IMG/VR virus record: IMGVR_UViG_3300025785_000041
Coordinates: 1 to 37,037 of that record
Strand: one strand, 5' to 3'
DNA from: a virus
DNA length: 37,037 nt
Every line of letters begins with the position of its first letter. Positions within the stretch are counted from its first letter, which is position 1. A model generated the notes under the pieces. It ran no database searches. It was not told where the DNA came from and was given only the letters and a program-made list of their open reading frames with translations. Both the position numbers and the translations under genes were made by a program. This document shows, in pieces, positions 17,701-34,828 of the stretch.

Positions 17701-20700
17701 TATATATTTGCTTCCTCCGTAACCGTTTCCATCGTTAAGATCGATCAACCTTGTTTCAAACAATCCTGCATCACGGAATTCGTCTTGGAATACAGCGGAA
17801 TTATAGCCTGAACCACTGATAGTGGGTACGGCACTAGTATAGTTTGTACCTGCGTTTCCATATTCAAATCGATAAACTTGTCCTACTGCATCTGTTACTA
17901 CGTTAGTAATCTGAGCAGGATTAGCACGATTATTTAAATTTCCGTATAAGGGAACTTCGGTTGTGTCAACGCCTTCGGCTACTACACCGTATGTACCATA
18001 TGAACTGTTACCGTTAGTAGCACGAATACGTCCGCCTAACTCTGCCATATAACCTGCATAGCTATAGTAGTTAAAAACCGATACTAGCTCTGATAAAGAT
18101 CCGGCTCCAGTGGTCATCCAACCAATACCGTCTCCAATAATGCATGTGTAATCGTTAGATACCATAGAGTGGTATCCGCCGGCGTGTAATGCACCGTCAA
18201 CTTTAGCACCGTATGCGGCATATCCAAACATTGTACAGTTCTGTACATAACAGCTACGTCCATAGATCCACGCATTGCTATCGTTTGGTCCAAATCCTGG
18301 ATCTAAACTTGTGAAGGCACCACCTATTGGTCGTTTTGTTCCAAACGTTACACTAGCATTTCCTAAATATCCAGTTAAACCGTTCATAGTCATATTACGA
18401 ATACCAGAAGCATTACGTACTAACCACATGTTAGATTTTGCAGAACCGTTAATTGAATTTAACAATACTTGTGCATAACGTAAACTTCTATAGTTACCAG
18501 TATATTGTAAATCATAAATGATAGCATTTAAGTAATATTGAATATCATTCTGTGTTAATGCTACTGGATAATAATATGCTACAGTAAATGCTGGAGTTGC
18601 TACGGATGAAAGTTGTACTGTTGCTCCTGTGGAACCAGTGTTAATATTTGTATACCCTTCAATAGTTGTTACTGTAAATGTAGTTGTACTAGGCGCACTT
18701 GCAACATAATATGTTGTGCCAGCTGTTAAGCCGCCACTTACAAATCCGGTATATGAAACGGTACTAGAAGTACTTGCTACTACACCGGTTGTAAATATTG
18801 CTCCACCAAGACCAATACTAGATACTGTTATATAATTAGAAGTTGCTGTTAATACCCAATAAGTTGTTCCAGCTTGAATATTACCAAATCCTGTACCAAA
18901 AACTACTGTGCCGTTTGGTACTAGGCCTGTAATAGAATTAACTGTAATTTGATTACTAGCATTGGCCGCGGTTGCTGTTGTTGAAGCTGTAGTTGCAGTA
19001 AATTGTACAGGGTCGTTTACTACTAAACTATGTGCCGAACCAGTTGTAATTATATTTGTACCAGTTGTAGTTGAACTTAAAGTATAAGTGTATAGAGATG
19101 CATAGTAGGCTGTAACTTCAGACTGCAAGAACGGAATATTAGCACGTAAGATCTCGGCTCCTTCGATAATACCTAAAGTATTATTATAGGATATAGTTCC
19201 ATTCATTTGAGGTTGAACATACTGACTTGTACCTAAATAACTAATAATTGTATTAAGGTTGTTAGTCGAAGCTGTTAATTGAGCTAGATATGTTGAATTT
19301 GAAAGTGTTGTGGCCACTAGCGTTTGCAGATAATTCAACGCCGCAGTAGTTACAGTTAACTCATATCCTTGTAGTTGATAATCTTGTGTTCTATTATAAG
19401 CACGGCCAGCTTGCACAGTGGCAAAGTTACTGCCTAACAATGTATCAAGGAATATAGCCAATGTAACATTAAACACATCACGCTGTGTATAATTTTGATT
19501 ATAAGTAAATGCTGTATAGTTTGTATTAATATAGCCTACAACACTAGATTGACTTACCGCCGATACCGCTACACCGGTGACAGGTATAGCAACAGTACCA
19601 CTAGTAGCGGCAACACTTATTGTATAGGTACCAGTGTTACCAGTACCTGTACCAAATGCTGTAATTGTGGCGCCGCCGGTAATACCAGTAGCAGTTAATA
19701 CCATGCCTAATGCAATAGTTCCAGAAGACACTGCTGTAACGTTAATAGTAGTTGTACCATTAATTGTAGCAGTAAATGTCGCAGTTGAACCAGACTGATA
19801 TGTCGGAACACTTGCGCTTACTGCTGTCCAAGCGGCTAAGGCTGTTGAACTAGCTGTTGTTAGCTGTGGCATGTTGATAGTTTGAATACTTTGTGTTAAA
19901 CCACTGCCAGTAGTAAATGTAGTAATTGCTGTGCCGTTATAGCTGTTTGACAATTGAAACTGTGTTGAAGTTAGCCCTGTACTAATAACATAATACGGAG
20001 TAACTGTAGAACCAATAATTGTCGATACCAACCCGTTAGCAGTTGACTGAGGAATAATCATGTCGCCTGCACTTAGTCCGTGGTTGGCTGAGCCAACGGT
20101 TACTGCACCGTTTGAAATAGCAGTCGATCCACCAGTAAACGTAATTACAGTACCAGCGTAAACGTTAGCAAGCGAAGTTGATAATGTTACTGTTGTTGAA
20201 CTTGTTGTAGTTGCGGCAACGTAATATGTAGTAGTTGCGGCTAACCCCGAAGTTGTTGTAATTGAACCACCGGTTAAAATAGGAGTACCTTGGTTATAAC
20301 TTGCGGCAGTTTGTAGTGTGACTGTAGTTCCATTAGTATTAGTAATTGTATTACTCAAAGTACCAGTTGTAAATGTTGTACCGCTTGTAATTGTAGTAAT
20401 AATTGCAGTTGGAACGCCAGTTGTTAAACCGTTGTTAACAATATCAATTACAACAAACATTAGTGTTTGCATACGACCGGCATCACGTGATGATCCTGCA
20501 ACCATGTTAGTTGTTGGCAATACTTGAGTCACAGTTGCTTGTAATGAACTACCATAACTAGTGCCTGTTATTACATATGAATTTAATAATGTAGCAATAT
20601 AGTTAAGTGTTGCCGCAAACGCAGTGCCAAACCCTGATGATATCTGTGTACCATACAATGCTGAGTAATAAGCCATACCAGCATTTTGACTTGCCCAGTT

Positions 20701-23700
20701 ACCACCGTAAATCATATCATAGTGTAAAGCATCTAAAATATAACCCATGTCGCGCTGTGTTTTAGGTAAACTATAGTTAGGATTACTTGTTAATGAACTA
20801 TAGTTTGTAGTAAAGTATGCTACTGCTTCAGCAATCAAATATGCACGGTTTGCTTCTAGCATACCAATTACAGTGCCTGGATCAGAAACTGTTACATATT
20901 GCACTCCGCCGCTACTAACTTGTGTTACATTAAGTGTAATATCATTTGTTGGGCTTGTTCCGCCGATTGATGCCCCACTAATACGTAATTTACTACTTGT
21001 AGTGTAGCTGGCTCCAGCAACTGTTGGAACTACTGTGTATGAATAGTATCCATTACCATTTGATAAACGTGTAATTGTAAATGCCGCTGTGCCGTCACCA
21101 CCGCCTGTTACGCTTAGAGCTGTTACGCTTGTGTAAGTAGCTTGTGGTAATGCCTGTTGTGGCCATGTAATTTGTGGGGGTGCCGCAGGACCACCTTGTA
21201 AGTAGCCGGTTAAATCATCAATAGTAGTTTGAATTTGTGCAACTGCACCACTTGCCGCAATTTGCTTCATCTTATAATACATGAAGTTGATTGCACCTAA
21301 TGTTGGAGCTAGTTCTCCACTAGTTGATGAACGTAAGTTTGTAGCACTTGTGTTAGCACGATTAAATGCACGAGCAATTTGGATAGCATTAAAGTTTGAT
21401 CCAAACACCATGTCATATGCAGTATATGTTGCAATTAATGTTGCATCTCGATTAATCAAGTTTGGATTGCTGTATGTTACACTTTGATAATATTTGTAAA
21501 CCCAATATTGTGCATCACTGGCAATATTGCTGATTAAACCAGTAACTGTGTTAAATGCAGTCTGTAGTGCAACCGATTGAGCCCCAATGTATGGTAATAC
21601 TTGTGCGTCTGCTGCCGCATTGTTGATCCAGTTAATAACGTTCTGAATACGATCGCCTGCAAAGTTAGAGGCTGCTACGCCACCATCACCGCCTACTGTG
21701 ACTTGTACAACGTTATTACCTGATGTTGGGCTAAAACCTGTTCCTCGTGCAACTGTAATGATTGCCGCTCTTAAGCGAGTTAGTGCGGCTGTATACGCGG
21801 CTGTTTGTGCCGCAGTAATTTGTAAAATATTTAACGAATAATAAGCCGCACCTGCAATTAAACTTTGTGTGTTACCACCATAAGTTAAATCATATAGTAC
21901 GCTGTCTAAAATGTAAGTAATATCACGAACACCTAATCCGTATTGTGTTGCATTACTTGTAGTAAATCCAGATGTTCCTGGGTTGTTAGCCAAATATTGT
22001 AGAGTTTCTGTAATTAAGAAATTATAATTTTGTTGGATTTGTGTAAATGCAGTTGCATAACCAGTAGTAGTACCAGTTGGATTGCTACCTGATGTTGTTG
22101 CATAGGCTATGTTAGTTATGCTACCAGTACTGTATCCTGTTGGTTGTGGCATCTGAATCACAGGTGTGCCATGCAATCCAGTAGCGACTAGTTCATATAT
22201 GATATTAAAACTTGTTTGTAAATTAGTAATAGCAGTTGAACTACCAGTTGACGCCGCTGGCAAACTTGTTACCTGCGCTGTAGTATTTCCAGTTGTCGGA
22301 GTGATAGCAGTATTGCTCATCAAGTTTGGAATTAATGTCTTAATTCTGTTTAGAGCCACTACTGCTTTAGGAACAACAGTAGCTAGTGTTACGTCTGCCG
22401 CAAATGGTTGTACTACTGTTGAACGAAGTTCGTCGCCAACAAGTGCTGTGTAAGCTGGAACATTGATTGGAAGGACTTCATTATATGTACCTGTTTTAAT
22501 ACTAATAGTAGTAGCTGGATTGATAACAGCTGGTAATACGTTATTAGTTGTACCGGCTGATAAGCAACTTGTCAAATATCCGACAAGTGTTTGTGCTTTT
22601 GATAGTACACCAGATTCAACGGTGTAATTTGTATTGATTTGTTGTTTAGCCTTTTCTGTTTGAACAGTACCTGCAACAGTTTGTCCTCCTGTAGTTGTAC
22701 TTAAGAAACTTACGCTTCCAGAACTACTTGCAGTAACTTGCCAAGTACCATTGTAACTTGTTGGTGTAACTCCGGCTACTACAATGTAACTACCCACAGT
22801 GAATGCTGAACCAGAGTAGGTAATAGTAGCAGTTGTACCGTTACCATTTGCACCAGTTGTTGCGATTGCTGGATTCAATGTCAATTGATAGTTAGTTCCG
22901 GGTGCAGTATTAGCTAATACGTTTGGAATTAATGTATTTGCAAGATAATTTAATCCGCCATTGAACGCTGTTACATCATACGCATAAACACCAGTAGCAA
23001 ATGTTGAGCCGGTTGAGTTAAAGAACGCTTGAACGTTAGTAGTTGTTTGATATGTACCGTTGTGTGTAATATCAAATATTAGTCCTTGAATTACTAAACC
23101 GGTATCACGTTCTGACTTGCTACCAAGATATGAATATGTACCAACGTTAGCACTACCAGTACCTACTGTAAACAATGTAGGAACAAGTGCATTTGCATAA
23201 CTTGTAGCAATAGTAAATGTTGTGCTTGATAGTACTTGAGCAACAAAATATGTTGTGCCTGCAACGATATTGCCAGAACTTATTGTGAATACAATTGGCA
23301 TACCAACATATAAGTTTGCAGTAGTTATTTGTGCAACTGTACTTGTGCCGCCAACAGTAATCGTTGTACTTGATGTACCAGTTACGTTAACACTATATTG
23401 ATAATAGATATAATTGTTAACTTCCTTCATCATAAATTCTTTACTAGCTGTTAGTAAAAATTTAGCATTAGGGTTTAAATAACCGTCTTCAACTTGTTGA
23501 CAAGCGTAACGAATACTTTGCCAAGGTTTATCAATAGTTGTTCCTTGGCCTTGAGTTGTAACATCTGATCCAGTAGGAGCAACATATACAAGATTATTAA
23601 TTTGTCCATAATATTGCCACGAAGGCTGATTATTGTTTACACGTAAAACTTGGCCGTCGGCACCAATTGGCAAACGTGTTGGACCATTAGCACCATAATA

Positions 23701-26115
23701 AAACATATCACCTTGCGTAGTAAGAACAGCTTGTTCTGTACCCGATGCCATTAAATTCCAATATGTACCAACAGTATCATTATCCGGACGATTTCCGGTT
23801 GCTGAAGTGTGTGCTAATACGCAAATATATGTACTTACGCCCCATAAAACAGTATCCCCCAGCACATAAGCTGTGCTAGTAGCCCACGTGACACTGATAC
23901 CTGTTGAGGTAATTGTATTAATTGCTCCAGTAGTCACTGACGCAACAGTAATTGTTAAATCATTTGCTGGACTTAATCCTCCTAGGCTTGTACCTAGAAT
24001 TTTCATAGTGTTAGTTGCGGCATATCCGCTACCTGGACTAGTCACAGTCACGGTGTATGTTGTATTTTTTGCAAGCACTGTAAATACTGCACCAGATCCT
24101 GTACCTACAATGTTTGTAGCTGAAAGTCCAGTGTATGTATTATAACTAGGAGTCCACTTAATGCCAGAAGTTAATTGTCCCCAATATGATGCAAATGGAG
24201 GTTTTGGATTAGTTGTAGCCGTTACAGTTAATCCTGTCTGTGTTGATACTGTTGTTTGTATTCCGCCTGATTGCAGTGTACTAACCGTGAAAGTGGTTGC
24301 AGTTGGAACTGTTAAGACATAATATTGTGTTGAACTAACCAACCCAGTGACTGAAATGCCAGATGCAAATGTTATTGGTAATCCGGCAATTAAATTAGCA
24401 GTTGATGCTGTAGTAAGAGTATTTAATGTGCCTGTGATAGTTGTACTAGAAATAAGAGTACCGGTATAATTGGTAGTCCATACTGTTCCACTGCCACCGG
24501 TAATATAATAAGTATTAGTAGTTAGGCCGCCGCCACTTAGGTACATTCCAATAGTAACTGCTTGTCCAGTAGGTGTACCACTAATTGTTAGCACACCAGT
24601 TGGACTAATAGTAGTACTAGGCATAGTTGCTACGCCAGTAGTTGATGCTGTAATAGTTGGTGTTTGAACAGCATTATCCGCAAGAGCAAGATATGTATAA
24701 CCATCGAGTGTCACAACATCGCCAATTCTATAACCAGTTTGTCCGGTTTGTATTCCAGAAGGTGCTGTTGTCCATGCTCCGGCAAAAGTTAAACCGGTTG
24801 TAAATGGTTGCCAATATGTAGAAGCAGTGCTAGGAGTTTGTCCGGTATGATTCTGTAAGGCAACATAAGTATATCCACCATAGCTAACTACATCCCCTTG
24901 AACATAAGTCGAACTATTTGACCATGTATTTAGGTATTCAAAGCCTGAAACAAATAAACTAAAATTAGCTGATGCAAATGTAGCTGATGAAGTGTGTTGC
25001 GTAGTACAAATGTAAAGATTAGCGCCATAAGTTACAACATCATTAGCGCGATATCGAACACTTGATCCACTCCAGGCTCCTTGATAATAGATACCAGCAT
25101 TGAATGTTGACCATTTAAGCTGGTCGTTTTCAAGTCCTAATGCAGTTGTATTTGCTGATACATGTGCAGTATTACAAATATAAGTATATCCGCCGTAACT
25201 AATTAGATCGTTTAATTTATAACGTGTATTGATTGTCCAAGCGCCTAGCCAGTTGATGTTGCTTGAATATGGAACCCAATACTCAATTACAAATGTTAGA
25301 CCAACGGGTGTTCCTGCTGAAGTTGTTATTGCTGGGCCGCCTTGCGTGGCACTTAATGTAAAGCCTGTTCCTAATCCATTCGTAGCAATAATATAGTATG
25401 TGCCAGTTGTTACCGATCCAGCGCCGGTGTTAGTTCCAGAAATAACTACTGCCATACCTACATTCAATGTAGTTGATGCGCAAGTAAATGTTCCGTTAGC
25501 ACCAATTACTGGACTTGGAATATTATTGTATTGACTGTTTTCTAACCCTAATTGACTTGGGCCAGATACTGTGCCAAGTGTACCAGATGTGTATGTTCCA
25601 GTTAATGCAAATGTTAGTTGGGTAGTAGAACAAGTTACTACTGTAAATGTAGTATTAACTGTATTAACTGTACCGCTTGTTGAAGTAGGACTGAACCCAG
25701 CTAAGGTAATTGTTGAACCAATTAAGAATGGTTGAACAATTTGTGCAGAATATGTGATAGTAGCTGTGCCACCACTAACTGTAATTCCTGTTGCAGTTAA
25801 AGAAGCTGTTGCACTTGTACTAGTATGAGGTGTTAAACATTGATATATTACTCCTCCGTACAAGGATAAATCGCCAACGTTAAAGGTAGTACTATTTTGC
25901 CATGTACCTCTCCAAGTAGATCCGTCTGCTATTAAATTCCACAATGTTGGATTAGCATTTAAATCAGTAGCAAACGCTACAGATGCGGTATTTGATATTA
26001 CACAAATATATGTTTTGCCGCCAACTGTAACAATATCATCAACAACGTATGAATTTCCAGCTGTCCAAGTTCCTTGATATACTGGTTTAATTCTACCTAA
26101 TTTATATTCAGCCAT
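13723..26115 (-). CDS. Giant modular fibre protein A (4130 aa), paralogue of B
   Basis: A single uninterrupted reading frame of 4130 residues, roughly 0.4 MDa, rich in Thr, Ser, Gly, Asn and Ala. Approximate order: seven W/Y repeats (1-770); a fibre-type GDMFYYG...RLPIGADGQVL segment (about 792-825); a beta-helix entry GSDVTTQG...DKPWQSIRYAC; GDELR at 1227-1231; a 1,340-residue insertion; beta-helix core from R2567 to about 2840; beta modules; a seven-repeat propeller (about 3160-3690); and a conserved C-terminal domain (about 3800-4130) with KYSQVRLTGHDFLYIGSG and TSTDQDGNF. No signal peptide or catalytic motif is seen. It is probably a long fibre or whisker that contacts the host, anchored by the ends conserved with B. 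It may belong with the very large structural proteins called VrlC in cyanophages; I could not check this. AGAGGA precedes the ATG, below a late-type promoter motif. Confidence 0.9.
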   Translation of the reverse strand: MAEYKLGRIKPVYQGTWTAGNSYVVDDIVTVGGKTYICVISNTASVAFATDLNANPTLWNLIADGSTWRGTWQNSTTFNVGDLSLYGGVIYQCLTPHTSTSATASLTATGITVSGGTATITYSAQIVQPFLIGSTITLAGFSPTSTSGTVNTVNTTFTVVTCSTTQLTFALTGTYTSGTLGTVSGPSQLGLENSQYNNIPSPVIGANGTFTCASTTLNVGMAVVISGTNTGAGSVTTGTYYIIATNGLGTGFTLSATQGGPAITTSAGTPVGLTFVIEYWVPYSSNINWLGAWTINTRYKLNDLISYGGYTYICNTAHVSANTTALGLENDQLKWSTFNAGIYYQGAWSGSSVRYRANDVVTYGANLYICTTQHTSSATFASANFSLFVSGFEYLNTWSNSSTYVQGDVVSYGGYTYVALQNHTGQTPSTASTYWQPFTTGLTFAGAWTTAPSGIQTGQTGYRIGDVVTLDGYTYLALADNAVQTPTITASTTGVATMPSTTISPTGVLTISGTPTGQAVTIGMYLSGGGLTTNTYYITGGSGTVWTTNYTGTLISSTTITGTLNTLTTASTANLIAGLPITFASGISVTGLVSSTQYYVLTVPTATTFTVSTLQSGGIQTTVSTQTGLTVTATTNPKPPFASYWGQLTSGIKWTPSYNTYTGLSATNIVGTGSGAVFTVLAKNTTYTVTVTSPGSGYAATNTMKILGTSLGGLSPANDLTITVASVTTGAINTITSTGISVTWATSTAYVLGDTVLWGVSTYICVLAHTSATGNRPDNDTVGTYWNLMASGTEQAVLTTQGDMFYYGANGPTRLPIGADGQVLRVNNNQPSWQYYGQINNLVYVAPTGSDVTTQGQGTTIDKPWQSIRYACQQVEDGYLNPNAKFLLTASKEFMMKEVNNYIYYQYSVNVTGTSSTTITVGGTSTVAQITTANLYVGMPIVFTISSGNIVAGTTYFVAQVLSSTTFTIATSYANALVPTLFTVGTGSANVGTYSYLGSKSERDTGLVIQGLIFDITHNGTYQTTTNVQAFFNSTGSTFATGVYAYDVTAFNGGLNYLANTLIPNVLANTAPGTNYQLTLNPAIATTGANGNGTTATITYSGSAFTVGSYIVVAGVTPTSYNGTWQVTASSSGSVSFLSTTTGGQTVAGTVQTEKAKQQINTNYTVESGVLSKAQTLVGYLTSCLSAGTTNNVLPAVINPATTISIKTGTYNEVLPINVPAYTALVGDELRSTVVQPFAADVTLATVVPKAVVALNRIKTLIPNLMSNTAITPTTGNTTAQVTSLPAASTGSSTAITNLQTSFNIIYELVATGLHGTPVIQMPQPTGYSTGSITNIAYATTSGSNPTGTTTGYATAFTQIQQNYNFLITETLQYLANNPGTSGFTTSNATQYGLGVRDITYILDSVLYDLTYGGNTQSLIAGAAYYSLNILQITAAQTAAYTAALTRLRAAIITVARGTGFSPTSGNNVVQVTVGGDGGVAASNFAGDRIQNVINWINNAAADAQVLPYIGAQSVALQTAFNTVTGLISNIASDAQYWVYKYYQSVTYSNPNLINRDATLIATYTAYDMVFGSNFNAIQIARAFNRANTSATNLRSSTSGELAPTLGAINFMYYKMKQIAASGAVAQIQTTIDDLTGYLQGGPAAPPQITWPQQALPQATYTSVTALSVTGGGDGTAAFTITRLSNGNGYYSYTVVPTVAGASYTTSSKLRISGASIGGTSPTNDITLNVTQVSSGGVQYVTVSDPGTVIGMLEANRAYLIAEAVAYFTTNYSSLTSNPNYSLPKTQRDMGYILDALHYDMIYGGNWASQNAGMAYYSALYGTQISSGFGTAFAATLNYIATLLNSYVITGTSYGSSLQATVTQVLPTTNMVAGSSRDAGRMQTLMFVVIDIVNNGLTTGVPTAIITTITSGTTFTTGTLSNTITNTNGTTVTLQTAASYNQGTPILTGGSITTTSGLAATTTYYVAATTTSSTTVTLSTSLANVYAGTVITFTGGSTAISNGAVTVGSANHGLSAGDMIIPQSTANGLVSTIIGSTVTPYYVISTGLTSTQFQLSNSYNGTAITTFTTGSGLTQSIQTINMPQLTTASSTALAAWTAVSASVPTYQSGSTATFTATINGTTTINVTAVSSGTIALGMVLTATGITGGATITAFGTGTGNTGTYTISVAATSGTVAIPVTGVAVSAVSQSSVVGYINTNYTAFTYNQNYTQRDVFNVTLAIFLDTLLGSNFATVQAGRAYNRTQDYQLQGYELTVTTAALNYLQTLVATTLSNSTYLAQLTASTNNLNTIISYLGTSQYVQPQMNGTISYNNTLGIIEGAEILRANIPFLQSEVTAYYASLYTYTLSSTTTGTNIITTGSAHSLVVNDPVQFTATTASTTATAANASNQITVNSITGLVPNGTVVFGTGFGNIQAGTTYWVLTATSNYITVSSIGLGGAIFTTGVVASTSSTVSYTGFVSGGLTAGTTYYVASAPSTTTFTVTTIEGYTNINTGSTGATVQLSSVATPAFTVAYYYPVALTQNDIQYYLNAIIYDLQYTGNYRSLRYAQVLLNSINGSAKSNMWLVRNASGIRNMTMNGLTGYLGNASVTFGTKRPIGGAFTSLDPGFGPNDSNAWIYGRSCYVQNCTMFGYAAYGAKVDGALHAGGYHSMVSNDYTCIIGDGIGWMTTGAGSLSELVSVFNYYSYAGYMAELGGRIRATNGNSSYGTYGVVAEGVDTTEVPLYGNLNNRANPAQITNVVTDAVGQVYRFEYGNAGTNYTSAVPTISGSGYNSAVFQDEFRDAGLFETRLIDLNDGNGYGGSKYITASNSAQPNTTPYQIVISATDGALSTAYLGMRVQLTAGTGVGQYGNILSYNNGSKTALVIKDSVSLPSITATTNATATLSASSIAVTTGILTVGTVSGTIAVGMFLTGGSIAAGVYIVSNISGSGAGSTWQTNTTVAQSSTTITATQNTLTVSSTANMYNGMPIYVGTAIAGLTALGLYYIQGLTTSNTFSLATGATITASNANIVSVTTTTVTTVTITAASVVNNLITSSNSLTAGQTISFGTAFNGIDTGTLYYVNATNLSPTSFAVSTTPFTGTTVTITSSATGLSITGTVGTAIYAAGWDHVISGFVSASFGSPTTTVTYSNILDLTTTYIIEPRISYSAPSYSATSRTVVSAGYGAVTYGNKNFVATNTNGTTTQFSTDGKTWQAGGALPSSQVWNNVIYGGGQGATATAVLGGFGGSGAVLTPVIVNQQVTSVIITNGGYNYTTPPTIIFVGTSGSGAQATCTVLNGAITSVTMTVNGSGYISAPSVIITTSVVSSTTMNTWGKNYYGSPTVTFDTPQNLSTNTYPASTLLTLNNYYIVAATGRIYKCTVAGTTSSTIPSFDVFNTTTLTQTNGSATLQYVATLASATGNYSNGSITSLTITNTGYGYTSIPNISVIDPSALYLAMSTTASTGTYFAYNIVSTLGSSWTALGGTAYISVLNLYGLAYGNGVYVAVGGASGTATAASTGTPTSSGNWTARTLTALSAGYYSAVAFGSGGNASGTFIAINYGGNITSVSNNGTTWTAGGTLPTTQNWISVSYGNNRFIALASNGAVAYSVNYGTSWTASPTCSGTTTSILSSTYTWTKIGYGQGLFFAVAQSTVAATSPDGITWTVRTMPGSATNWSAVAFGNPSNQTSNVIGAQPIWVAVSSTTGTVAASMRIGPQPLGRMKVVSNAITEIRVIEPGSGFAKGNISATTASTNVITSDDITGLSTSIANNQPIEFNTVSSGGLTTNTTYYVIGSSVTTTVAPAGTFQVTATAGSVTPVALTTTSPVGMIYTAGPIVTQLDPNKVNTAPTRVRTSDGVLANPSFQNRGLNNTTATASTFGDGYADLYQNSAYINVSGIYGIPTAGANVQFATITGSAQWYKLVQVTNILGISGNYTATFQINPALTTLLAPPNGTLITTRLKYSQVRLTGHDFLYIGSGNQTQTNYPNVTSANAIQANQSYPNGGGRVFFTSTDQDGNFNVGNLFGVQQSTGTATLNASAFALSGLQSLTLGNLSVGTGSATITSFSTDPYFTANSDNVVPTQKAIKSYITAQIGGGSSSLNVNTLTAGQIQIANNTISNTTGNQIYVTSKMTFTGGVDGAPIALLFFGQK
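15030..16640 (-). repeat. Seven-repeat beta-propeller-like region of A, interrupted after repeat 2
   Basis: Seven copies of a W-x-x-(I/V)-x-(Y/F)-G-N-G-x-F-(V/I)-A-(I/V) unit, for example NWISVSYGNNRFIALAS and YTWTKIGYGQGLFFAVAQ, with intervening S-x-(D/N)-G-x-T-W-T strands typical of BNR/sialidase-type blades. Between repeats 2 and 3 (roughly 15810-16480) lie GSGY-type beta modules, breaking the propeller. Confidence 0.7.
17600..18440 (-). other. Beta-helix-like core of A
   Basis: From RNASGIRNMTMNGL (R2567) through DPGFGPNDSNAWIYGRS, YVQNCTMFG, KVDGALHAGGYHSMVSND, GGRIRATNGNSSYGTYGV to FRDAGLFETRLID. This resembles the stacked-turn solenoid of pectin-lyase-type spikes. It is closely paralleled in B from R1072. 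Confidence 0.7.
17999..18036. repeat. 38-bp direct repeat, copy in gene A
   Basis: Identical base for base to 31200-31237 in gene B, in the same orientation. It encodes part of GGRIRATNGNSSY in the beta-helix core of both proteins. Confidence 0.85.
18495..23110 (-). repeat. Six RD-(x)-ILDA-YD-GGN helical units in A
   Basis: Six related units begin near residues 1003, 1395, 1556, 1788, 2212 and 2520. Examples are RDITYILDSVLYDLTYGGN, RDMGYILDALHYDMIYGGN and, more diverged, NDIQYYLNAIIYDLQYTGN. Each is followed by a helix ending AYY or AFN. Only one such unit exists in B (RDAGFIIDAIAYDLGRGGN near residue 668). The first precedes GDELR and five lie inside the 1,340-residue insertion. Confidence 0.75.
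23806..26115 (-). repeat. N-terminal W/Y repeat array of A (seven units)
   Basis: Seven units of the form (G)xW....Y..(G/N)D.(V/I).(Y/L)GG..Y.C...H(T/V)S, for example GAWTINTRYKLNDLISYGG and STYVQGDVVSYGGYTYVAL. The pattern recalls chitin-binding type 3 (CBM5/12) modules. Unrelated beta modules interrupt the array after units 2 and 6. Confidence 0.75.
25557..25812 (-). repeat. Mobile beta module M3, copy in A (inside the N-terminal array)
   Basis: About 85 residues: TATGITVSGGTATI..., PFLIGSTITLAGFSPTSTSG, NTTFTVVTCSTTQLTFALTG, TLGTVSG. It closely matches a segment at 27762-28031 in B, where it lies in the propeller instead. Confidence 0.8.
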
Positions 26116-26155: not shown

Positions 26156-27130
26156 CTAAACAGTTTTATACCAAGAATTTCTTGCAAAAAAGTATAAGGC
26201 AGCTAAGTTTCCGTCAACACCGATGTTAACAGGACCTGCATTTAAAACTTGGCCAAAATATACTTTACTGGTCATTTTTACATTTGAACCTGTTGTACCG
26301 TTAGGTATAGTAGATTTAATAAGATTTGGACTACCTACTACCACTGTGCCGGCTGTTAATTGTCCTGTGAACGTATTAGAACCGCCTTGACTTAAACGAC
26401 TTGTTAAATATGTTTTAATTGATTTTTGAGTTGCTATCACACTATCGCTATTAGCACTGAATGTACCATCGGTGCTAAATTGTGTAATAATTACACCTGA
26501 TCCACCAACACTAATACCCCCTAAACTTAAACTATTCAATCCAGATATTCCAAATTGGCTTGCACTTAATGTAACAATTCCAGTTGCTTGTTGAACTCCA
26601 AACAAACTGCCAACCTTAAAGTTACCGTCTTGATCTGTTGATGTATAGAATACACGACCATAGTTGGCTTCAACTGTTTGATTATTGGATTGAGAGTTTG
26701 CAGAACTTGTTGCTGGGTACAACGAATTAGTTAAATCTCCCGAACCGATGTATAAGAAATCATGATTTGTTAATCTTGCCTGGCTATATTTTGTACGTAT
26801 ACTAATTATTGTGCCGTTAGCGGTTGAGTTTGCAGGAATTATTGCAGGGCTAACTGAAATATTTGCTTCTAAATTTGGAGCAATAGTTCCAAATACTGGG
26901 TATGCACTAGTAACTTTATAAATTTGACTTACCCCTGTAATTGTCAAGTTATCGCCTGGGCTAGGCAATCTTGTTAAATTATTTAAAATAACAGTTAATC
27001 CAGTTTGATATTGATCAGCATATCCACTACCTGTTACTAAAATTACAGTTGAATTACTATTGTAACCGTTACCTTTGTTATTGAATGTCGGGCTTGATAA
27101 CACGCCCTGACTTAATCGTTGAACAAACAA
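26156..27130 (-). other. Conserved C-terminal domain of giant protein B
   Basis: KYSQARLTNHDFLYIGSGD, GRVFYTSTDQDGNFKVGSLF, ASQFGISGLNSLSLGGISVG, SANSDSVIATQKSIKTYLTS. This matches A over its whole length with few gaps. Confidence 0.75.
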
Positions 27131-30100
27131 TACGTTTGTTGTAATATTCGGGTCTGTTACCGTAACAGCAGGTGTATTATATGTTGTTGCTCCTGCTGAT
27201 GTAACATAGCCAGAGCCTGGTTCCCACTCGTTAACACTGGTAATAACACCCGATGTCACCGAAGGTCTGCCTTTAGTTCTGCAACCTGCACTAATTATAC
27301 TACCACTACTTGTGCTAGTCAGTGTTGCAATTAAACCATAGTTATTTGTTCCAAAACCAAATGCTACATTATTAGCATAGGCAGAGCCTGCTACACCTTG
27401 TATATTCCATTGTAAACAATCTTCAGAAGTATACGCTGTAGTACTTCCAGAATTAAGTGCGGTAAACACCCCTTGTCCGTATACCACAGAAGTAGATGTC
27501 ACAGCAATATTACTACTATACCATGTGTAACCGTTTTGCGTATACGCCGGAGTAGTAACTGAACCACCGCTTGAACTACTAACGGCAACAAAAGTCTGTT
27601 GTCCATATGTAATACTTGACCAGTTAGAAGATGACGGTAATGTGCTAATGTACCATGTTTGTCCATTAAGACTGTATGCGGCCGCCGATGATCCGCTTGC
27701 TATTGCAACAAATAATCCATTACCGTATGTGATGCTTGACCAGTTAGAGGATGTTGGTAATCCTGCATGTGTTCCAAAAACTGTTCCTAAAATACTTGAT
27801 GAATATGTACCTGTTAACGTAAATGTAACTTGTGATGTTGTACAAGTTGCAACGGTAAATGTTGTGTTAATATTATTTGTTGGGCCAGTGGTTGTTGTAG
27901 GATTAAATCCAGACAAGGTAATAGTAGATCCAACTGTAAATGGTGCAATACCTGTTGTGTTAGTAAATCCTATAGTAGCTGTTCCTGCACTAACTGTGAA
28001 CGAAGTTGCGGTTAGTGTAACTGCTGTTTGGCATGAAGTCCATGTTTGTCCATAATTGTTGCTATAAGCCGCTGTGCTTGTACCCGATGCTATTGCAACA
28101 AATACACCATTTCCATATGCAATATTTGACCAAGTAGTTGAACTTGTTAAAGACGAAGTCCTCCATCCTAAACCGTTTGCTTTACTAACTATTATAGTCT
28201 GCGATCCGCTTGCTATAGCAATCCAATATCCGTTTCCATATGCTATTCCAGTCCAAGACTGCGACAGGGGCAATGCTAAACTTGTCCATGTTTGGCCGTC
28301 CGAACTTCCTGCGGCAGTTTGGCCTGTACTTGGAAAAGCAATCCAATAATTACTTCTATTACTATAGGCCATTGAAGTCCAAAGTGTTCCACCAGTTAGT
28401 TGTACTGCGCTGATAAAGTTAGTTTGGCTAAAGATAGGAGCTGTGTATGTTAATCTTGGTTCTATGTAGTATACCGAAGTATTATCAAGAACCGATTGGA
28501 TTGGTGTTCCTGGGTTAATATGATCCCACCCTACCGAGGCTACGTTCATGGATCCTGTTTTAGTTAGGATTCCAAATGGTGTTGCTGAAGTTGATGTGCC
28601 TGATACTGTTCCTTGATTTAAAGATACTGCAAATGTAGTACCTGTACTAGAAGGAATTGATTGAACATAATATGTCTGACCTATTGTCACGTTACCAAAC
28701 AAACTAGTAGAGAATGTGGCCGTCATGCTGCCTGATGGGCTTAATGTTAATGTTTTTACAGTGTTAGTACTTGTTCCTATCATAGATCCAGATGATCCAT
28801 TAAGCGAGAAAGGAGCAGGGCATGTTCTTGCTAACATTTGTCCAGAACCACCGTTCATTACAACTGCGCCGCCGCCAGGTGTTTGACTAATGGTAAATGT
28901 TGTAATATTATTAATAGCCTGAATATAATAAACAGCACCTGATTGGATATTGATTTCCCAAGTAGTTCCAATAAAATTAATAGGCTGATTAACAACAAAT
29001 CCTGCTGTTGATGTTACAGTAATCAAATTTGTAGCATTAGCAGTTGCAGTCATGCTAACAGCAATTAATGAACTAGCTATTGTAAATTGTGTTGAATTAA
29101 CAATACTAGAAATATAATATTTTTGGCTGTCTACAACAGTATCAAAAATTGTATTCGTGAATACTATAGGATTCAATTGTACTAACGAAGCAGTTGTAGT
29201 CCCAGAACCAGTTGTTAAATAATTAGTTCCAGATGATGTTGTTGTTACAGTTACAGTTACTAATGTAGTTGATAATGTAAAATTATTAGAATCAATAATA
29301 TCGTTGATATAGTAAACAGTACTATCAGTAAGGCCACCAAGGGTAATTCCGGTATATTGAATAGGATAATTTACAACCATATTTGTTGTATTGGCTTGCA
29401 AATAATTATTATTAGCAATAAAATTCAAGACCATAGTGCCGCTAGAGACAGTGTTTAATTGATAAACTGTTCCTGCATAACTTGAGCTAATTTGAATTGT
29501 TGTTGAACTTAATATTGCACTAACATAATATGTATATCCTGCAATTACGTTACTGAATATTGCTCCGCTACCGGCAGTAAACGTTATTCCCATATTTACA
29601 GTTATTCCTAAAGTACTTGCTACTGTAAAATAATTACTAGTACCGCCAAGTGCGGCTGTTACTGTAGTTTGTGACAAGTTAGTTGAAGTAACTACAGTTG
29701 TGTAATATGTAGGAATAAATTGTACAGGCTGATTTAGATATAGTGTGCCAACGTTGCTATTTGCTAAAGTAAAAAATCCTGTACCTTGATTAGTACTTGC
29801 AATTTGCAAACTAGTAAATGATTCTTTTAAAACCCATGCATATTTTGGAGTGCCGCCAGTTGTGCGACTATCAAAATAACTAATATATCCATATTGCCCA
29901 GCACCAGTACCACTTTGAATAAACACTCGCATGCCGGTATAGTTTGCGTTAGTGTTAGTATCAGCAACTGATAATTGTACAAATTGTGCTGAGCCAGATT
30001 GTGCATTATTACTTGCAGTTAAGTATCCTGCGCCTCCTGTAGTACCGTTTGAATCGGTAGCTACACGAGTTTGAAATACACTTGCACTTCTAATTTCATC

Positions 30101-33100
30101 TGCAATAGTAACTACACCAGTGCCCGATCCAGAAATATTTAAATTAGCATAGGCTGTATATTTTGATGTAGAAGCTACTTCAAGATAAAAGTTAGGTGTG
30201 TAACTAGCTGATGATAATTCAACTTGAGACCCGTATATATAACTATATTGCCCTGCTGTGCCGTTATATCCTTTTGGATATATTCTAAATTGTAAATTAG
30301 TATTTAAACCTGTAGTATCGTTAACTGATAGCCATATTCTATACCAACCTGTAGTATTACCAGTTGTTGATACTGTTTGATTTATGGCTCCGTAATTGAT
30401 TGGCAATAATCCTGCACTAGATCCAGATATTGCACTATTACGAGGTGTAACAACTCCAGTAATAAAATTAAAATTAATACTGCTAGTAACTGAGTTGGAG
30501 CCGTTAAATATTCCGTACAAATCTATGCTTGTTGCATTTCCCTGTTTGACATACAAACTAAGAGTATAATTTAATGCACTATTAGCCGGTACTGTTCCTG
30601 TACTAGTTACTGTTAAAATTGTTGCAAGAGCTCCGGTAGATCCTACTGTAATAATACAATCGTTAACACTATTAACTCCGCCAAGTTGGCCGCCAGCGAT
30701 GAACATCTGGTTTCCGCTAACATAACCGCTACCGCCAGCATTAACTACAACAGTATAATTGGTGCTAGTTACAGTAATATTAAATGTTGCACCAATTCCA
30801 GAACCGCTAACATTAACCGCACTAACGTTTGTGTATGTTGCTCCGGCGGCAGGAATTGGTATATTTTGATAAACATAGCTACCGTCAGGCCCTGAAGTTA
30901 ATCCTTGCAATGTCCATGCTTCTACATTACCAGTCAGTGCTATAGTATTTTTACTGAACACTAGGTTGCCATCACTGGTCCAGTTTGATCCAAGGAAATT
31001 GTTACTATAGTTTAACCAATTTGTAGTTGGTGTATAATATGCTGAACCAGCATTTGAGTAACTTAATCTTAATAATTGTGCTGAAGATCCAAATGAACTC
31101 TGTACTGTTGCCTGTACCTGTGAGCTTTGGTTGAATATACTACCTGTTGCTGGGATTTCAGTTATATCGTAACCTGTTGCAATAACGCCGTACACACCGT
31201 ATGAACTGTTACCGTTAGTAGCACGAATACGTCCGCCAGCTTCTGCCATATAGCCGGAATATCCGTAATATGAAAACACTGATACTGCTTCAGTTAATGC
31301 GCCAGGGCCAGTACACCAAATACCGATACCGTCGTTAACAATGTGTGTAAAATCGTTACATACGATGGATTTGTTTCCGCCGTTGTGTAGTGTTCCGTCA
31401 ATTTTAAGAGCAGTACATCCATTACCAAAAGCTGTAACGTTTTGTACATATGGGCTACGTCGGAAGATCCAGGCAGTAGTGTCATTAGGATTTGTACCTG
31501 GATCTAAACAGGCATAGCTTCCGCCTGTTGGTCTTTGTATAAGATAGCTATCAATTGCTCCTAAAGTTCCTACTAAACCAGTCAAAGTCATATTGCGAAG
31601 GCCAGTTCCATTGCGTAGTCGGAACATATCTTTTAAACTATCTCCTGCATATACAGTCATATTACCGCCAGAGAAACTTGTTAAAGGTACTATAGTTGAT
31701 CCAGTACTGCTAACAGATGTTATTCCGCCAGCTGTAATACCTGTAACTGTTATATTAATATCATTTACTGATAAATTTACAGTTCCTGTACCAGTTAATG
31801 TAGTTCCATTATAAGTAAAGGATGTCCCAACTGTATTAGAACTTGCTCCGGCTGCTGTAAAAGTTGTAGTACCAACTGTTAAAATTGTATAGACTGTTCC
31901 TTGAACTAGCGATGTTGCCGCAAAAGTTGTTGCACCGACATTACCTCCGAGAATTTTTAATGTATCACTAACTGCATAGCCACTGCCTGCGTAACTTGCT
32001 GAAACATTATATGTACCTGTACTTGCAGGGCTAACTGTAAAAGTAGCGTTCACTCCACTACTTGAAGTATTTGTAGCAGTAACATAAGTGTATGTGCCTG
32101 TAGAGCTAGTAATAGCAAATTGATTTGTTGTAGTGTTTATAGTACTACCAACTGCATAGTATTTTTGGCCTGTAGTTATTCCGCCAAATCCTACATAAGT
32201 AGTTCCTATAACATTTAGTATATTTGATGCGGCAAACATTACTGGCATTTGATCTGTCAGTGCGCTAATATTAGAAACTGTAAATAAATTTGTAGAAGAA
32301 TTACTAGCCGTAGCTGTAGTTACTATACTAATTGCAGGTTGCACAATTACTCCACGCAATTCATCTCCTACAATAGCTACATTTTCTGGCACAGATATTG
32401 GCAATGTTTCTGAATATGTTCCAGTTTTAACAAATATAGTAATACTAATACCTGTATTTGTAGGAGGTAAACTATATGTACTTTGGGTCGATAATGCAGT
32501 TGTTACGTAACTTATTAATGTCGACGCAGATGTTGCTCCTGCAGATTCTGCCGCTAACAATCCGGTTGTTTGATTAATAACCGGAGTTACTTGATTAGTT
32601 ATTTGATAGTTAGTAGTGTTGGTTTGTGTAATAGCAAAATTTAGCAATGTTGTTAGATAATTTAACATTGGCAAATAATAAGGAACATCGGCAGCAACTA
32701 CAGAACTATAAAATATATTATTTTGGCCAAACGCAAAAAACGATTGGGCGGCTGCAACAGTTTGACTATTCCCGCCTCTACCTAAATCGTAAGCTATTGC
32801 ATCGATGATAAATCCTGCATCTCGAGTAGCTTTTGTAGTATTCAAACTGTAACCTGAATACAAATAATTATAAGATGCCGCCGGAGTATTAATTTGATAA
32901 TTAGTCCATTGTATCATTTCTGCAAGCATCCACGCTTTGTTTGCTTGTATTAGTGCTACTGTATTAGGATTTTGTGTTCCGTTAGCTATAAAATTACATG
33001 CATAAGCTATAGTTCTCCAAGGCTGATCCCATGTTGAACCATAGGTTGCAATATTTTGACCAGTAGATGAACATACATAGTATACGTTTGGAACAGAATT

Positions 33101-34828
33101 AATTTTAGTCCAACTTGGTATATTATTTGTACTTCTTAATACATAAGAATTTTGTACCTGGCCTTGGGTTCCAGATATTGGTAGTGAAGTATAGCTAGAA
33201 GTAGAACTAGAATAATATTCTAAATCACCCGACGTGTTCATTGCATTCTTTCTAGCATGTGTTACATAAAATACCCAATATAAATTATTTGTGTCAAGAT
33301 CAGGTCTATTAGAAGAATTAGCAGTATGCCCTTGTACACAAATATAAGTTCCATTTTGCCAAACAGCTATATCTCCTACCGTATAATATGTAGTAGATAC
33401 CCATGTTTTAGTCCAGTATGTTCCCGGAATTAGCAAATTCCAATAAACATAATTTACACCAATAAAATTTATACCCTGGCCGGTAGTTAATGTCGCTGTT
33501 GAGTCGGGTGGACTACTTAAAATGACCGTATTTAAAGTGCCGGTTGTACAAGTAGTATTTGCCGCTTGACTACTGCTGACAGTCCAAGTTAGTCCTGCAC
33601 CGCTAACAATATAAGTCCCCGGACCAATAGTGCCGCCGCTTAAGACCATCCCAGGTACAATAGTTCCAGTTACTCCACTCACTGTCAATGTAGTACCTGT
33701 TACACTAAATGTTCCTGTAAATTGTGCATTGGTAGTCCCAGCCGATGATACTGTCTGACCTTGAGTAAATCCCGGCCCAAGTACATTCATTCCAGGTGTA
33801 ATTCCTGCTACACTACCTACTATTAAAGTTGTACCAGAACTTCCATTAGGAATGTAAGTCGATGATAAATTTAATGCCGAAGGATCTTGGCTAATATGAT
33901 TTGTGTTAGTAGAATATAATCTGCCGTGTCTACGAACAATGTCTCCAACTATATAATTAGTTGCCGCCGACCATTCACCTAAAAATGCAAATCCTTGAGT
34001 AAATAGTGACCAAGCACTTGGACTAGTACTAGGAATATTTCCAAGATTATTGGTTATTTTACTAATATAGGTGTAACCTCCATATTCAATAGTATCACCT
34101 AACTGATAATTTGAATTTGTTACCCAAGGATTGCTGGGAGCGTATTCCAACCCTGGTAACCACAAAGACCAATTTGCTGGAACAAATACACTATCAGAGT
34201 TGTATGTAGTGCATTGATAAATGTTATCGCCTAGTTTTGCAAGATCATTTAATTTGTATCTCGTGGTTGCAATCCATATTCCGGTATAGTTTATACCGCT
34301 ATAAAATACCTTCCAAGCGGCTTGATTACTTTCCAATCCTAATGCAGTAGTTGCCGCACTTGTATGATTAGCAATACAAGAATAAACAATACCTCCGTAC
34401 TTGACTACGTCGCCTATGCCATAGGAAGTGTTAGTTGTCCAAGTGATATGCCAGTTTGGAAATTGTGTGTATAAGGCCCAATAAGTTGATTGACTGGCAA
34501 AAGTTGTACTGGTATGCTGAGTAGTACAGTAGTAAATTTGTCCGCCAAAGATTGCAATATTACCTAGACTATAAGCTGTACCCGTAGACCATTGGCCGGT
34601 AAAAGTTTTACCGTCAATAATTAAATTCCAGTAAGGAGTACTTGCTCCTGAACCAGTTATATAATTTAAATCGTTGTAAAAATTTGTTGCATCACTTGTG
34701 TTAGCAATTAAACAAACGTAGGTCTTGCCTTGGTAACTTACGATTGCATCTTTTATATAGGTAGTATTAGGTTGCCATGGCCCTTGCCATGTAAAACGTA
34801 ATCTACCAATTTTGAATTCTGCTGCCAT
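26156..34828 (-). CDS. Giant modular fibre protein B (2890 aa), paralogue of A
   Basis: A 2890-residue uninterrupted frame with the same ground plan as A. In order: seven W/Y repeats (1-~500), a NTSGDLEYYSSS/LPISGTQGQV fibre segment (about 530-565), a beta-helix entry ATYGSTWDQPWRTIAYAC (about 590-610), one RDAGFIIDAIAYDL helical unit (about 668), GDELR at 821-825, a 250-residue insert with nested modules, beta-helix core from R1072, a jelly-roll module (about 1262-1555), many beta modules, a seven-repeat propeller (about 2145-2505) and a C-terminal domain shared with A. The N-terminus (AAEFKIGRLRFTWQGPW) matches that of A (AEYKLGRIKPVYQGTW). No catalytic motif. Virion fibre role is inferred from module types and the operon. 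Ribosome site weak (GGGA). Confidence 0.9.
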   Translation of the reverse strand: MAAEFKIGRLRFTWQGPWQPNTTYIKDAIVSYQGKTYVCLIANTSDATNFYNDLNYITGSGASTPYWNLIIDGKTFTGQWSTGTAYSLGNIAIFGGQIYYCTTQHTSTTFASQSTYWALYTQFPNWHITWTTNTSYGIGDVVKYGGIVYSCIANHTSAATTALGLESNQAAWKVFYSGINYTGIWIATTRYKLNDLAKLGDNIYQCTTYNSDSVFVPANWSLWLPGLEYAPSNPWVTNSNYQLGDTIEYGGYTYISKITNNLGNIPSTSPSAWSLFTQGFAFLGEWSAATNYIVGDIVRRHGRLYSTNTNHISQDPSALNLSSTYIPNGSSGTTLIVGSVAGITPGMNVLGPGFTQGQTVSSAGTTNAQFTGTFSVTGTTLTVSGVTGTIVPGMVLSGGTIGPGTYIVSGAGLTWTVSSSQAANTTCTTGTLNTVILSSPPDSTATLTTGQGINFIGVNYVYWNLLIPGTYWTKTWVSTTYYTVGDIAVWQNGTYICVQGHTANSSNRPDLDTNNLYWVFYVTHARKNAMNTSGDLEYYSSSTSSYTSLPISGTQGQVQNSYVLRSTNNIPSWTKINSVPNVYYVCSSTGQNIATYGSTWDQPWRTIAYACNFIANGTQNPNTVALIQANKAWMLAEMIQWTNYQINTPAASYNYLYSGYSLNTTKATRDAGFIIDAIAYDLGRGGNSQTVAAAQSFFAFGQNNIFYSSVVAADVPYYLPMLNYLTTLLNFAITQTNTTNYQITNQVTPVINQTTGLLAAESAGATSASTLISYVTTALSTQSTYSLPPTNTGISITIFVKTGTYSETLPISVPENVAIVGDELRGVIVQPAISIVTTATASNSSTNLFTVSNISALTDQMPVMFAASNILNVIGTTYVGFGGITTGQKYYAVGSTINTTTNQFAITSSTGTYTYVTATNTSSSGVNATFTVSPASTGTYNVSASYAGSGYAVSDTLKILGGNVGATTFAATSLVQGTVYTILTVGTTTFTAAGASSNTVGTSFTYNGTTLTGTGTVNLSVNDINITVTGITAGGITSVSSTGSTIVPLTSFSGGNMTVYAGDSLKDMFRLRNGTGLRNMTLTGLVGTLGAIDSYLIQRPTGGSYACLDPGTNPNDTTAWIFRRSPYVQNVTAFGNGCTALKIDGTLHNGGNKSIVCNDFTHIVNDGIGIWCTGPGALTEAVSVFSYYGYSGYMAEAGGRIRATNGNSSYGVYGVIATGYDITEIPATGSIFNQSSQVQATVQSSFGSSAQLLRLSYSNAGSAYYTPTTNWLNYSNNFLGSNWTSDGNLVFSKNTIALTGNVEAWTLQGLTSGPDGSYVYQNIPIPAAGATYTNVSAVNVSGSGIGATFNITVTSTNYTVVVNAGGSGYVSGNQMFIAGGQLGGVNSVNDCIITVGSTGALATILTVTSTGTVPANSALNYTLSLYVKQGNATSIDLYGIFNGSNSVTSSINFNFITGVVTPRNSAISGSSAGLLPINYGAINQTVSTTGNTTGWYRIWLSVNDTTGLNTNLQFRIYPKGYNGTAGQYSYIYGSQVELSSASYTPNFYLEVASTSKYTAYANLNISGSGTGVVTIADEIRSASVFQTRVATDSNGTTGGAGYLTASNNAQSGSAQFVQLSVADTNTNANYTGMRVFIQSGTGAGQYGYISYFDSRTTGGTPKYAWVLKESFTSLQIASTNQGTGFFTLANSNVGTLYLNQPVQFIPTYYTTVVTSTNLSQTTVTAALGGTSNYFTVASTLGITVNMGITFTAGSGAIFSNVIAGYTYYVSAILSSTTIQISSSYAGTVYQLNTVSSGTMVLNFIANNNYLQANTTNMVVNYPIQYTGITLGGLTDSTVYYINDIIDSNNFTLSTTLVTVTVTTTSSGTNYLTTGSGTTTASLVQLNPIVFTNTIFDTVVDSQKYYISSIVNSTQFTIASSLIAVSMTATANATNLITVTSTAGFVVNQPINFIGTTWEINIQSGAVYYIQAINNITTFTISQTPGGGAVVMNGGSGQMLARTCPAPFSLNGSSGSMIGTSTNTVKTLTLSPSGSMTATFSTSLFGNVTIGQTYYVQSIPSSTGTTFAVSLNQGTVSGTSTSATPFGILTKTGSMNVASVGWDHINPGTPIQSVLDNTSVYYIEPRLTYTAPIFSQTNFISAVQLTGGTLWTSMAYSNRSNYWIAFPSTGQTAAGSSDGQTWTSLALPLSQSWTGIAYGNGYWIAIASGSQTIIVSKANGLGWRTSSLTSSTTWSNIAYGNGVFVAIASGTSTAAYSNNYGQTWTSCQTAVTLTATSFTVSAGTATIGFTNTTGIAPFTVGSTITLSGFNPTTTTGPTNNINTTFTVATCTTSQVTFTLTGTYSSSILGTVFGTHAGLPTSSNWSSITYGNGLFVAIASGSSAAAYSLNGQTWYISTLPSSSNWSSITYGQQTFVAVSSSSGGSVTTPAYTQNGYTWYSSNIAVTSTSVVYGQGVFTALNSGSTTAYTSEDCLQWNIQGVAGSAYANNVAFGFGTNNYGLIATLTSTSSGSIISAGCRTKGRPSVTSGVITSVNEWEPGSGYVTSAGATTYNTPAVTVTDPNITTNVLFVQRLSQGVLSSPTFNNKGNGYNSNSTVILVTGSGYADQYQTGLTVILNNLTRLPSPGDNLTITGVSQIYKVTSAYPVFGTIAPNLEANISVSPAIIPANSTANGTIISIRTKYSQARLTNHDFLYIGSGDLTNSLYPATSSANSQSNNQTVEANYGRVFYTSTDQDGNFKVGSLFGVQQATGIVTLSASQFGISGLNSLSLGGISVGGSGVIITQFSTDGTFSANSDSVIATQKSIKTYLTSRLSQGGSNTFTGQLTAGTVVVGSPNLIKSTIPNGTTGSNVKMTSKVYFGQVLNAGPVNIGVDGNLAALYFFARNSWYKTV
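27310..28390 (-). repeat. Seven-repeat beta-propeller-like region of B, interrupted by M3
   Basis: Seven units such as WTGIAYGNGYWIAIAS, WSNIAYGNGVFVAIAS, WSSITYGNGLFVAIAS and WSSITYGQQTFVAVSS, joined by S..GQTW strands. Seven copies suit a seven-bladed propeller. Module M3 splits the array between the third and fourth YGNG strands. Confidence 0.7.
27762..28031 (-). repeat. Mobile beta module M3, copy in B (inside the propeller)
   Basis: TATSFTVSAGTATIGF..., PFTVGSTITLSGFNP, NINTTFTVATCTTSQVTFTL, GTYSSSILGTVFG. Homologous to 25557-25812 in A, and similar at the DNA level over long stretches. Confidence 0.8.
30165..31045 (-). other. Jelly-roll, carbohydrate-binding-like module present only in B
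   Basis: NWLNYSNNFLGSNW at the start, DGSYVYQN, LNYTLSLYVKQGNA, TGWYRIWLSVND and SQVELSSASYTPNFY at the end form the typical pattern of a lectin-like jelly roll common in phage fibres. A has no copy at the equivalent point. A 75-residue M1 module (about 30600-30845) is lodged inside it. Confidence 0.65.
31200..31237. repeat. 38-bp direct repeat, copy in gene B
   Basis: Identical to 17999-18036 in gene A. The bases just outside differ, while the surrounding 100 bp remain clearly similar. Confidence 0.85.
31775..31935 (-). repeat. Innermost nested beta module in B
   Basis: LVQGTVYTILTVGTTTFTAA, then NTVGTSFTYNGTTLTGTGTV: a unit known from many phage structural proteins. It splits an M1 module between its LGG and ND.ITV motifs, which adjoin directly in the other three M1 copies (A 23905-24140, A 20880-21140, B 30600-30845). 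Confidence 0.7.
33310..34828 (-). repeat. N-terminal W/Y repeat array of B (seven units)
   Basis: Seven units matching those of A, for example TNTSYGIGDVVKYGGIVYSC, TNSNYQLGDTIEYGGYTYIS and KTWVSTTYYTVGDIAVW. The array is broken between units 6 and 7 by beta modules (33490-33880), including one M2 copy. Confidence 0.75.

Follow-up and report, generated by a model that had tools for sequence, protein, structure and literature searches.

Probable serial nested domain insertion in a viral tail fiber protein, and a promiscuous mini-domain as putative surface decoration

The stretch of DNA analysed here (the window) comprises 37,037 nucleotides, positions 1 to 37,037 of IMG/VR virus record IMGVR_UViG_3300025785_000041. 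Two of its minus-strand genes, A (13723-26115) and B (Table 1), encode proteins that match the tail fiber profile PHROG 9851, with E values of 3e-124 (six stretches) and 2e-117 (five stretches), respectively. Both window proteins resemble PHROG 9851 tail fibers in this way, whereas the small inner unit of B described below matches no PHROG when taken alone. The N-terminal regions of A and B each contain several CBM_5_12-like repeats (PF02839; 2.1e-30 for A and 1.5e-34 for B). Residues 3216-3308 of A match the head closure profile Hc2 (PHROG 460) locally (1.3e-8), which probably reflects a shared repeat and not function.

B contains four nested levels, in which the fiber core holds a YYV module, the YYV module holds a second module (M1), and M1 holds a 51-residue inner unit. 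The nested M1 spans residues 912-1042 of B (31703-32095) and the unit residues 969-1019. Boundaries were set by an excision scan, in which every possible excision was scored with an M1 profile made solely from unit-free copies. The best excision was the same 51 residues in all five orthologues (the window, L003, L005, L006 and L206), and it raised the M1 score from 46.8 to 71.5, 35.5 to 54.0, 40.5 to 57.4, 38.2 to 59.1 and 43.6 to 63.3 bits, respectively; 51-residue excisions elsewhere reached at most 46.3 bits, with no gain. The junction thus reads ...GGNVGATT, 51 aa, SVND..., with the insert separating GG from ND in the M1 motif LGG(L)SPAND. A preliminary description of this DNA had counted three levels and placed the insert exactly between LGG and ND; modules do lie within modules and the insert does fall between GG and ND, but the scan does not place it directly after LGG, and there are four levels, with M1 in the tip of YYV. 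A unit profile built from ten units of other phages only gave a single match in B, at 31.2 bits, versus 5.8 bits for the best of 300 shuffled B sequences. Because the scan agrees in five orthologues and the profile match lies far above the shuffles, the nesting is considered real.

Table 1. Positions of gene B, its nested levels and related module copies in the window
Feature	Position	Strand	Basis or remark
Gene B	26156..34828	-	Uninterrupted 2890-aa ORF; tail fiber protein bearing the nested stack
Fiber core, upstream edge of gap (IFVKTGTY...GDELRGVIVQP)	32336..32437	-	Conserved across related loci
Level 1, YYV module, N-terminal part (AISIVTTATAS...QFAITSSTG)	32096..32335	-	HMM match 1.8e-11; uninterrupted in L014, L020, L021, L068
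Level 2, M1, N-terminal part (TYTYVTATNTS...ILGGNVGATT)	31925..32095	-	M1 profile; boundary by excision scan
Level 3, inner unit, 51 aa (FAATSLVQGTVYTILTVGTTTFTAAGASSNTVGTSFTYNGTTLTGTGTVNL)	31772..31924	-	Excision scan, independent HMM, AF2
Level 2, M1, C-terminal part (SVNDINITVTGITAGGITSVSST)	31703..31771	-	Excision scan
Level 1, YYV module, C-terminal part (GSTIVPLTSFSGGNMTVYAGDSLK)	31631..31702	-	Gap comparison
Fiber core, downstream edge of gap (DMFRLRNGTGLRNMT...NGNSSYG)	31196..31630	-	Comparison of relatives
Second M1 copy in B, without unit (SYVYQNIPIPA, M1, TVPANSALNYTLSLYVK)	30599..30841	-	M1 profile; inserted in another domain
Five tandem relatives of the YYV module in B	28532..29680	-	HMM matches, ORF residues 1721-2103
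M1 copy in A, without unit	23902..24141	-	M1 profile; slightly longer stretch modelled by AF2
Second M1 copy in A, without unit	20884..21141	-	M1 profile

The gap that lies between GDELR..VQP and DMFRLRNGTGLRNMT was compared in eighty relatives of the fiber core. L042, L052-L054, L062 and L074-L076 have an uninterrupted core of 33-34 aa, and in the four loci named for it in Table 1 the core carries a single YYV module of about 85 aa; the YYV family as a whole has 344 matches in 56 loci. The YYV hairpin tip holds a different module in L007, L011, L012, L015 and L016, a YHYH-like stretch in L017, L018 and L025-L030, and two M1 copies, both unit-free, in L008, while the full stack of core, YYV, M1 and unit is found in the window and its four orthologues. 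The YHYH-like stretch in these B-like fiber gaps is about 330 aa long, its motif being identified by eye; BFVD separately lists one 'YHYH domain' phage protein carrying the unit. L008 is the only known source of unit-free M1 at this position of B, and its two M1 copies have diverged. In a tree of the downstream core, the window group adjoins L011 and L012 yet differs from them in its tip module, and the occupant of the YYV tip therefore appears to have been exchanged between close relatives; this tree has few columns and leaves the full-stack group unresolved as one clade. At the fiber-core gap, A-type fibers (L034, L036 and window A, residues 1231-2577) have insertions of about 670-1340 aa, and one A copy of M1 sits within that of window A.

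The M1 profile has 94 matches in 58 loci, with the unit solely in B-orthologous copies. It is absent from the other three M1 copies of A and B, as the preliminary description had noted. The second B copy lies at a site for which an empty counterpart exists: 35 fibers carry M1 between ..YVYQNI..P and NYTLSLYVK, and this site is empty in L008 (GYVYQNITINPGSSTNYTLSLYVYQ).

Structures were predicted with AlphaFold2, with M1 and the unit modelled separately; MAFFT alignments mixing unit-bearing and unit-free M1 were misaligned and not used. The unit model (48 aa, 101 natural sequences) has a pLDDT of 92.6 and a pTM of 0.70 and consists of a strand, a short helix and a strand, and the model of M1 (A copy) has a pLDDT of 93.7 and a pTM of 0.83, so that each is predicted to be a compact autonomous fold. 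The insertion point falls in a loop of the M1 model (residues 56-63, between helix 52-55 and strand 64-72), and B is an uninterrupted ORF, in keeping with the earlier claim that the insertion is in frame and at a loop. Foldseek comparison with BFVD placed the unit in nine uncharacterised phage proteins of 248-1235 aa (TM 0.82-0.91). No sequence match and no convincing fold match to the inner unit was found in the PDB.

The unit is 47-51 aa long with the consensus AGSFVVGxxYxIxSVGTTDFTxIGAxSNTVGVxFTATGxGxGTGTA, in which G24 and G31 are invariant and Y10, I12, F20, N28 and F34 nearly so. A degenerate DNA pattern for G-A-x-x-N-T-V-G-x-x-F matched at least 120 stretches in viral contigs, nearly all of which encode the unit, in other proteins. 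Pattern matches listed and genome loci together give at least 249 units in at least 172 ORFs; among the matches listed, 132 of 172 ORFs have a single unit, and clustered runs occur in only a few adhesin-like ORFs. Two giant adhesin-like bacterial ORFs, L248 (9861 aa) and L242 (9621 aa), have up to eight unit copies. After masking of the unit, the hosts among the matches listed fall into 58 single-linkage blastp clusters, a rough count, inflated by fragments and affected by the merging of clusters through modular fibers. Among the hosts identified, the tail is represented by sheath, fiber, minor tail and tail proteins, and the baseplate by baseplate wedge and Baseplate_J proteins. There are also head, head-tail adaptor (Ad2) and spike-like proteins, one protein whose record names it a phage stabilization protein and, in bacteria, the pilus-tip protein PilY1; every host that could be identified is a virion or cell-surface protein. 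Surface exposure and host contact of the unit are inferred from these host proteins alone.

The inner unit had no match in Pfam, NCBIfam or PHROGs except a sub-threshold chance match; in Pfam at E <= 10 there was no family for it, and an M1-like consensus gave two weak non-Ig matches only. A search of plasmids gave no match. The unit occurs in at least three of 50,697 named phage records, including cultured Cyanophage S-TIM54, and in more than 100 uncultured contigs. In S-TIM54, whose laboratory host is Parasynechococcus WH 8102, the 47-aa unit belongs to virion structural protein UYE97271.1. The figure for named phages is a lower bound because BLAST low-complexity filtering hides matches: tblastn queries with the bare unit or M1 were masked by the filter, and less repetitive relatives used as queries did match.

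Empty sites were also found in other proteins. In the stabilization protein of MW202481 the unit lies between ..TTGTTLDGIDTAYNVT and IDMAA.. and is missing from five homologues, including those of cultured Methylophilales phage Venkman and Pelagibacter phage HTVC106P; one of the five, L280, has another kind of insert, about 60 aa long, elsewhere in the protein. MW202615 reads THLGIFDAIGTG, unit, NLLDYGAL, versus THFGIMDASTTG NLLYHGEL in Psychrobacillus phage PVJ1, where the site is empty. PilY1 has three and four units in two Rhodoferax genomes and two in one Polaromonas (L238, L239 and L243), at sites that partly differ among genomes, filled in one and empty in another; only 3 of 151 genomes in the bacterial family around Rhodoferax have the unit. 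Its presence in PilY1 links phage and pilus surface proteins. With 58 host clusters among the matches listed and these empty-site homologues, the unit qualifies as a promiscuous inserted virion domain.

Since about 90 other M1 copies are unit-free, the unit appears to be derived in M1 and not ancestral. The opposite history, an ancestral inner segment lost from all other copies, could draw on the fact that all five B orthologues found carry the unit at one place, which indicates that it is fixed in this lineage. It is highly improbable given that the unit is present in dozens of M1-free proteins and that the unit and M1 profiles show no homology to each other (hhalign probability 0.2%). The preliminary description had itself held that its insertion reading would fall if most M1 homologues contained the inner segment; this was checked, and about 90 of the 94 matches do not. 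The proposal that the modularity is a chance product of low-complexity Gly/Thr/Ser sequence can practically be dismissed: B is indeed rich in T, S and G, and low-complexity filtering did hide BLAST matches, but shuffled B sequences do not score like the real one, both the unit and M1 give confident folds, and structural matches reach a TM of 0.91.

In nine discordant pairs, units with 74-81% nucleotide identity reside in unrelated genes whose flanks are at random level, and unit shuffling therefore appears to have happened more than once. These pairs were found with calibrated flank scoring, a stricter flank-identity threshold giving none, and no very recent transfer was caught, the best discordant pair having 81% nucleotide identity. 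The unit might in principle move as a selfish DNA-level element, like Rickettsia palindromic elements, PARCELs or MITEs, with DNA features of its own and the frame kept by chance; its in-frame insertion in many unrelated genes, its punctate distribution and the multiple copies within single PilY1 and large adhesin genes would fit. We judge this very unlikely. Identity at fourfold-degenerate sites is 0.31 versus 0.30 expected from composition (pairs with 30-70% protein identity) and stays at composition level even where the proteins are 50-70% identical, most copies within one PilY1 gene are as diverged as unrelated copies, and the window copy has no inverted repeats (none in 31690-32110) and no clear target duplication at its junctions. 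A weak 24-nt direct repeat at the 5' junction (31916-31939 and 31853-31876, 79%) was discounted as unconserved in the orthologue proteins. Because the protein is conserved despite saturation at synonymous sites, selection appears to act on the unit protein, and the same pattern argues that the unit is retained in the protein, as opposed to an intein or translational bypass, so far as sequence data can decide. PARCELs are similar in being small coding modules with a punctate horizontal distribution in surface proteins, but they are 25-residue amphipathic tandem repeats with dyad-symmetric DNA, whereas the unit is a 47-aa single fold; of the marks of PARCELs and palindromic elements, dyad symmetry is missing from the window copy, and neither short tandem arrays nor conserved DNA characterise the unit. 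A protein-level unit could still be a neutral spacer, for which any small stable fold would serve and whose spread would be functionless recombination noise. Its strong bias towards G, T, S and A, its tolerance in many kinds of protein and the absence of a match to any known binding domain are compatible with a spacer, which remains a minority possibility, though an unlikely one; a spacer would not call for the reuse of one specific sequence family with invariant and near-invariant residues, nor for identifiable hosts that are virion or cell-surface proteins.

Most probably the unit serves as a mini-domain for surface decoration or adhesion that loops can accommodate and that recombination has spread, with its binding function inferred. 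This rests on the identified hosts, which are virion parts or a pilus-tip protein, and on phage Ig-like domains as the closest parallel. In the proposed history, a YYV module would have entered a permissive turn of the fiber core, M1 would then have entered the hairpin tip of YYV, and the 47-51 aa inner unit would have entered the M1 loop between GG and ND. The modules may be tolerated since they fold independently in loops, and may project from the virion surface as decorations that alter or add host-surface contacts, with selection retaining useful surface variants. As an inferred default, ordinary recombination in co-infected cells, either illegitimate or through short homology, would carry them from gene to gene; this route has not been shown. 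Serial in-frame insertion at loops, which the preliminary description had suggested, is supported because intermediates exist at every level, about 90 M1 copies are unit-free, homologues with empty sites occur elsewhere and the modules are predicted to fold separately. On this evidence, the nested-insertion history is very probably correct, and the explanation as a whole, serial nested domain insertion in a tail fiber by a promiscuous mini-domain that decorates the surface, is probable. An adhesive or contact role of the unit is more tentative, somewhat short of an even chance, as no binding partner or function has been shown. Also possible, but on balance doubtful, is the wider proposal that the unit, M1 and YYV belong to a common stock of mini-domains traded among unrelated surface proteins by uncultured phages and some bacteria. 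Such mini-domains would nest preferentially in loops of already inserted units, so that recursive insertion gives rise to branched fibers, and would act as cassettes for adhesion or decoration.

Modularity is a recognised trait of phage tail fibers, but the growth of large fibers has been poorly visible, with such modules missing from domain databases and nearly missing from cultured phages. In the present case, living relatives retain the steps of a nested build-up, and a single small fold, the innermost one, recurs in fiber, sheath, baseplate, neck and pilus-tip proteins. Whether phage host contacts evolve via recursive insertion of a small set of mini-domains can now be tested, and the unit profile lets annotators label many unknown virion proteins.

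Phage Ig-like domains are about 90 aa in size; the unit is about half that, at 47-51 aa, and has no Pfam match. The two are alike as promiscuous surface domains in unrelated virion proteins. The unit, unlike phage Ig-like domains, is loop-internal in the cases examined, has sheath, neck and PilY1 hosts, and lies inside another inserted module; it does not match Big, I-set or FN3 profiles, and its 48-aa AlphaFold2 model is not an Ig-type beta sandwich. Ig-like domains (Big_1/Big_2, I-set, FN3) are promiscuous additions to fibers, baseplates, tail tubes and capsids and have passed from one phage to another, unrelated one; they are dispensable for tube formation and possibly adhesive (PMC9022992; Fraser et al., 2006, as cited there). 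In a survey of domain mosaicism, tail and host-interaction proteins were described as still shuffling their fragments; a match to more than one ECOD domain was rare among tail fibers, and the signal based on sequence depended on shared fragments with a minimum length of 50 aa (Smug et al., 2023; PMC10684548); a 47-aa unit is at or below this cut-off, and the survey would tend to miss it. None of six sequence fragments of the unit was found in open papers. The unit is thus a new family among known promiscuous domains, and is unusual in its very small size, its wide range of host proteins and its recursive nesting with living intermediates.
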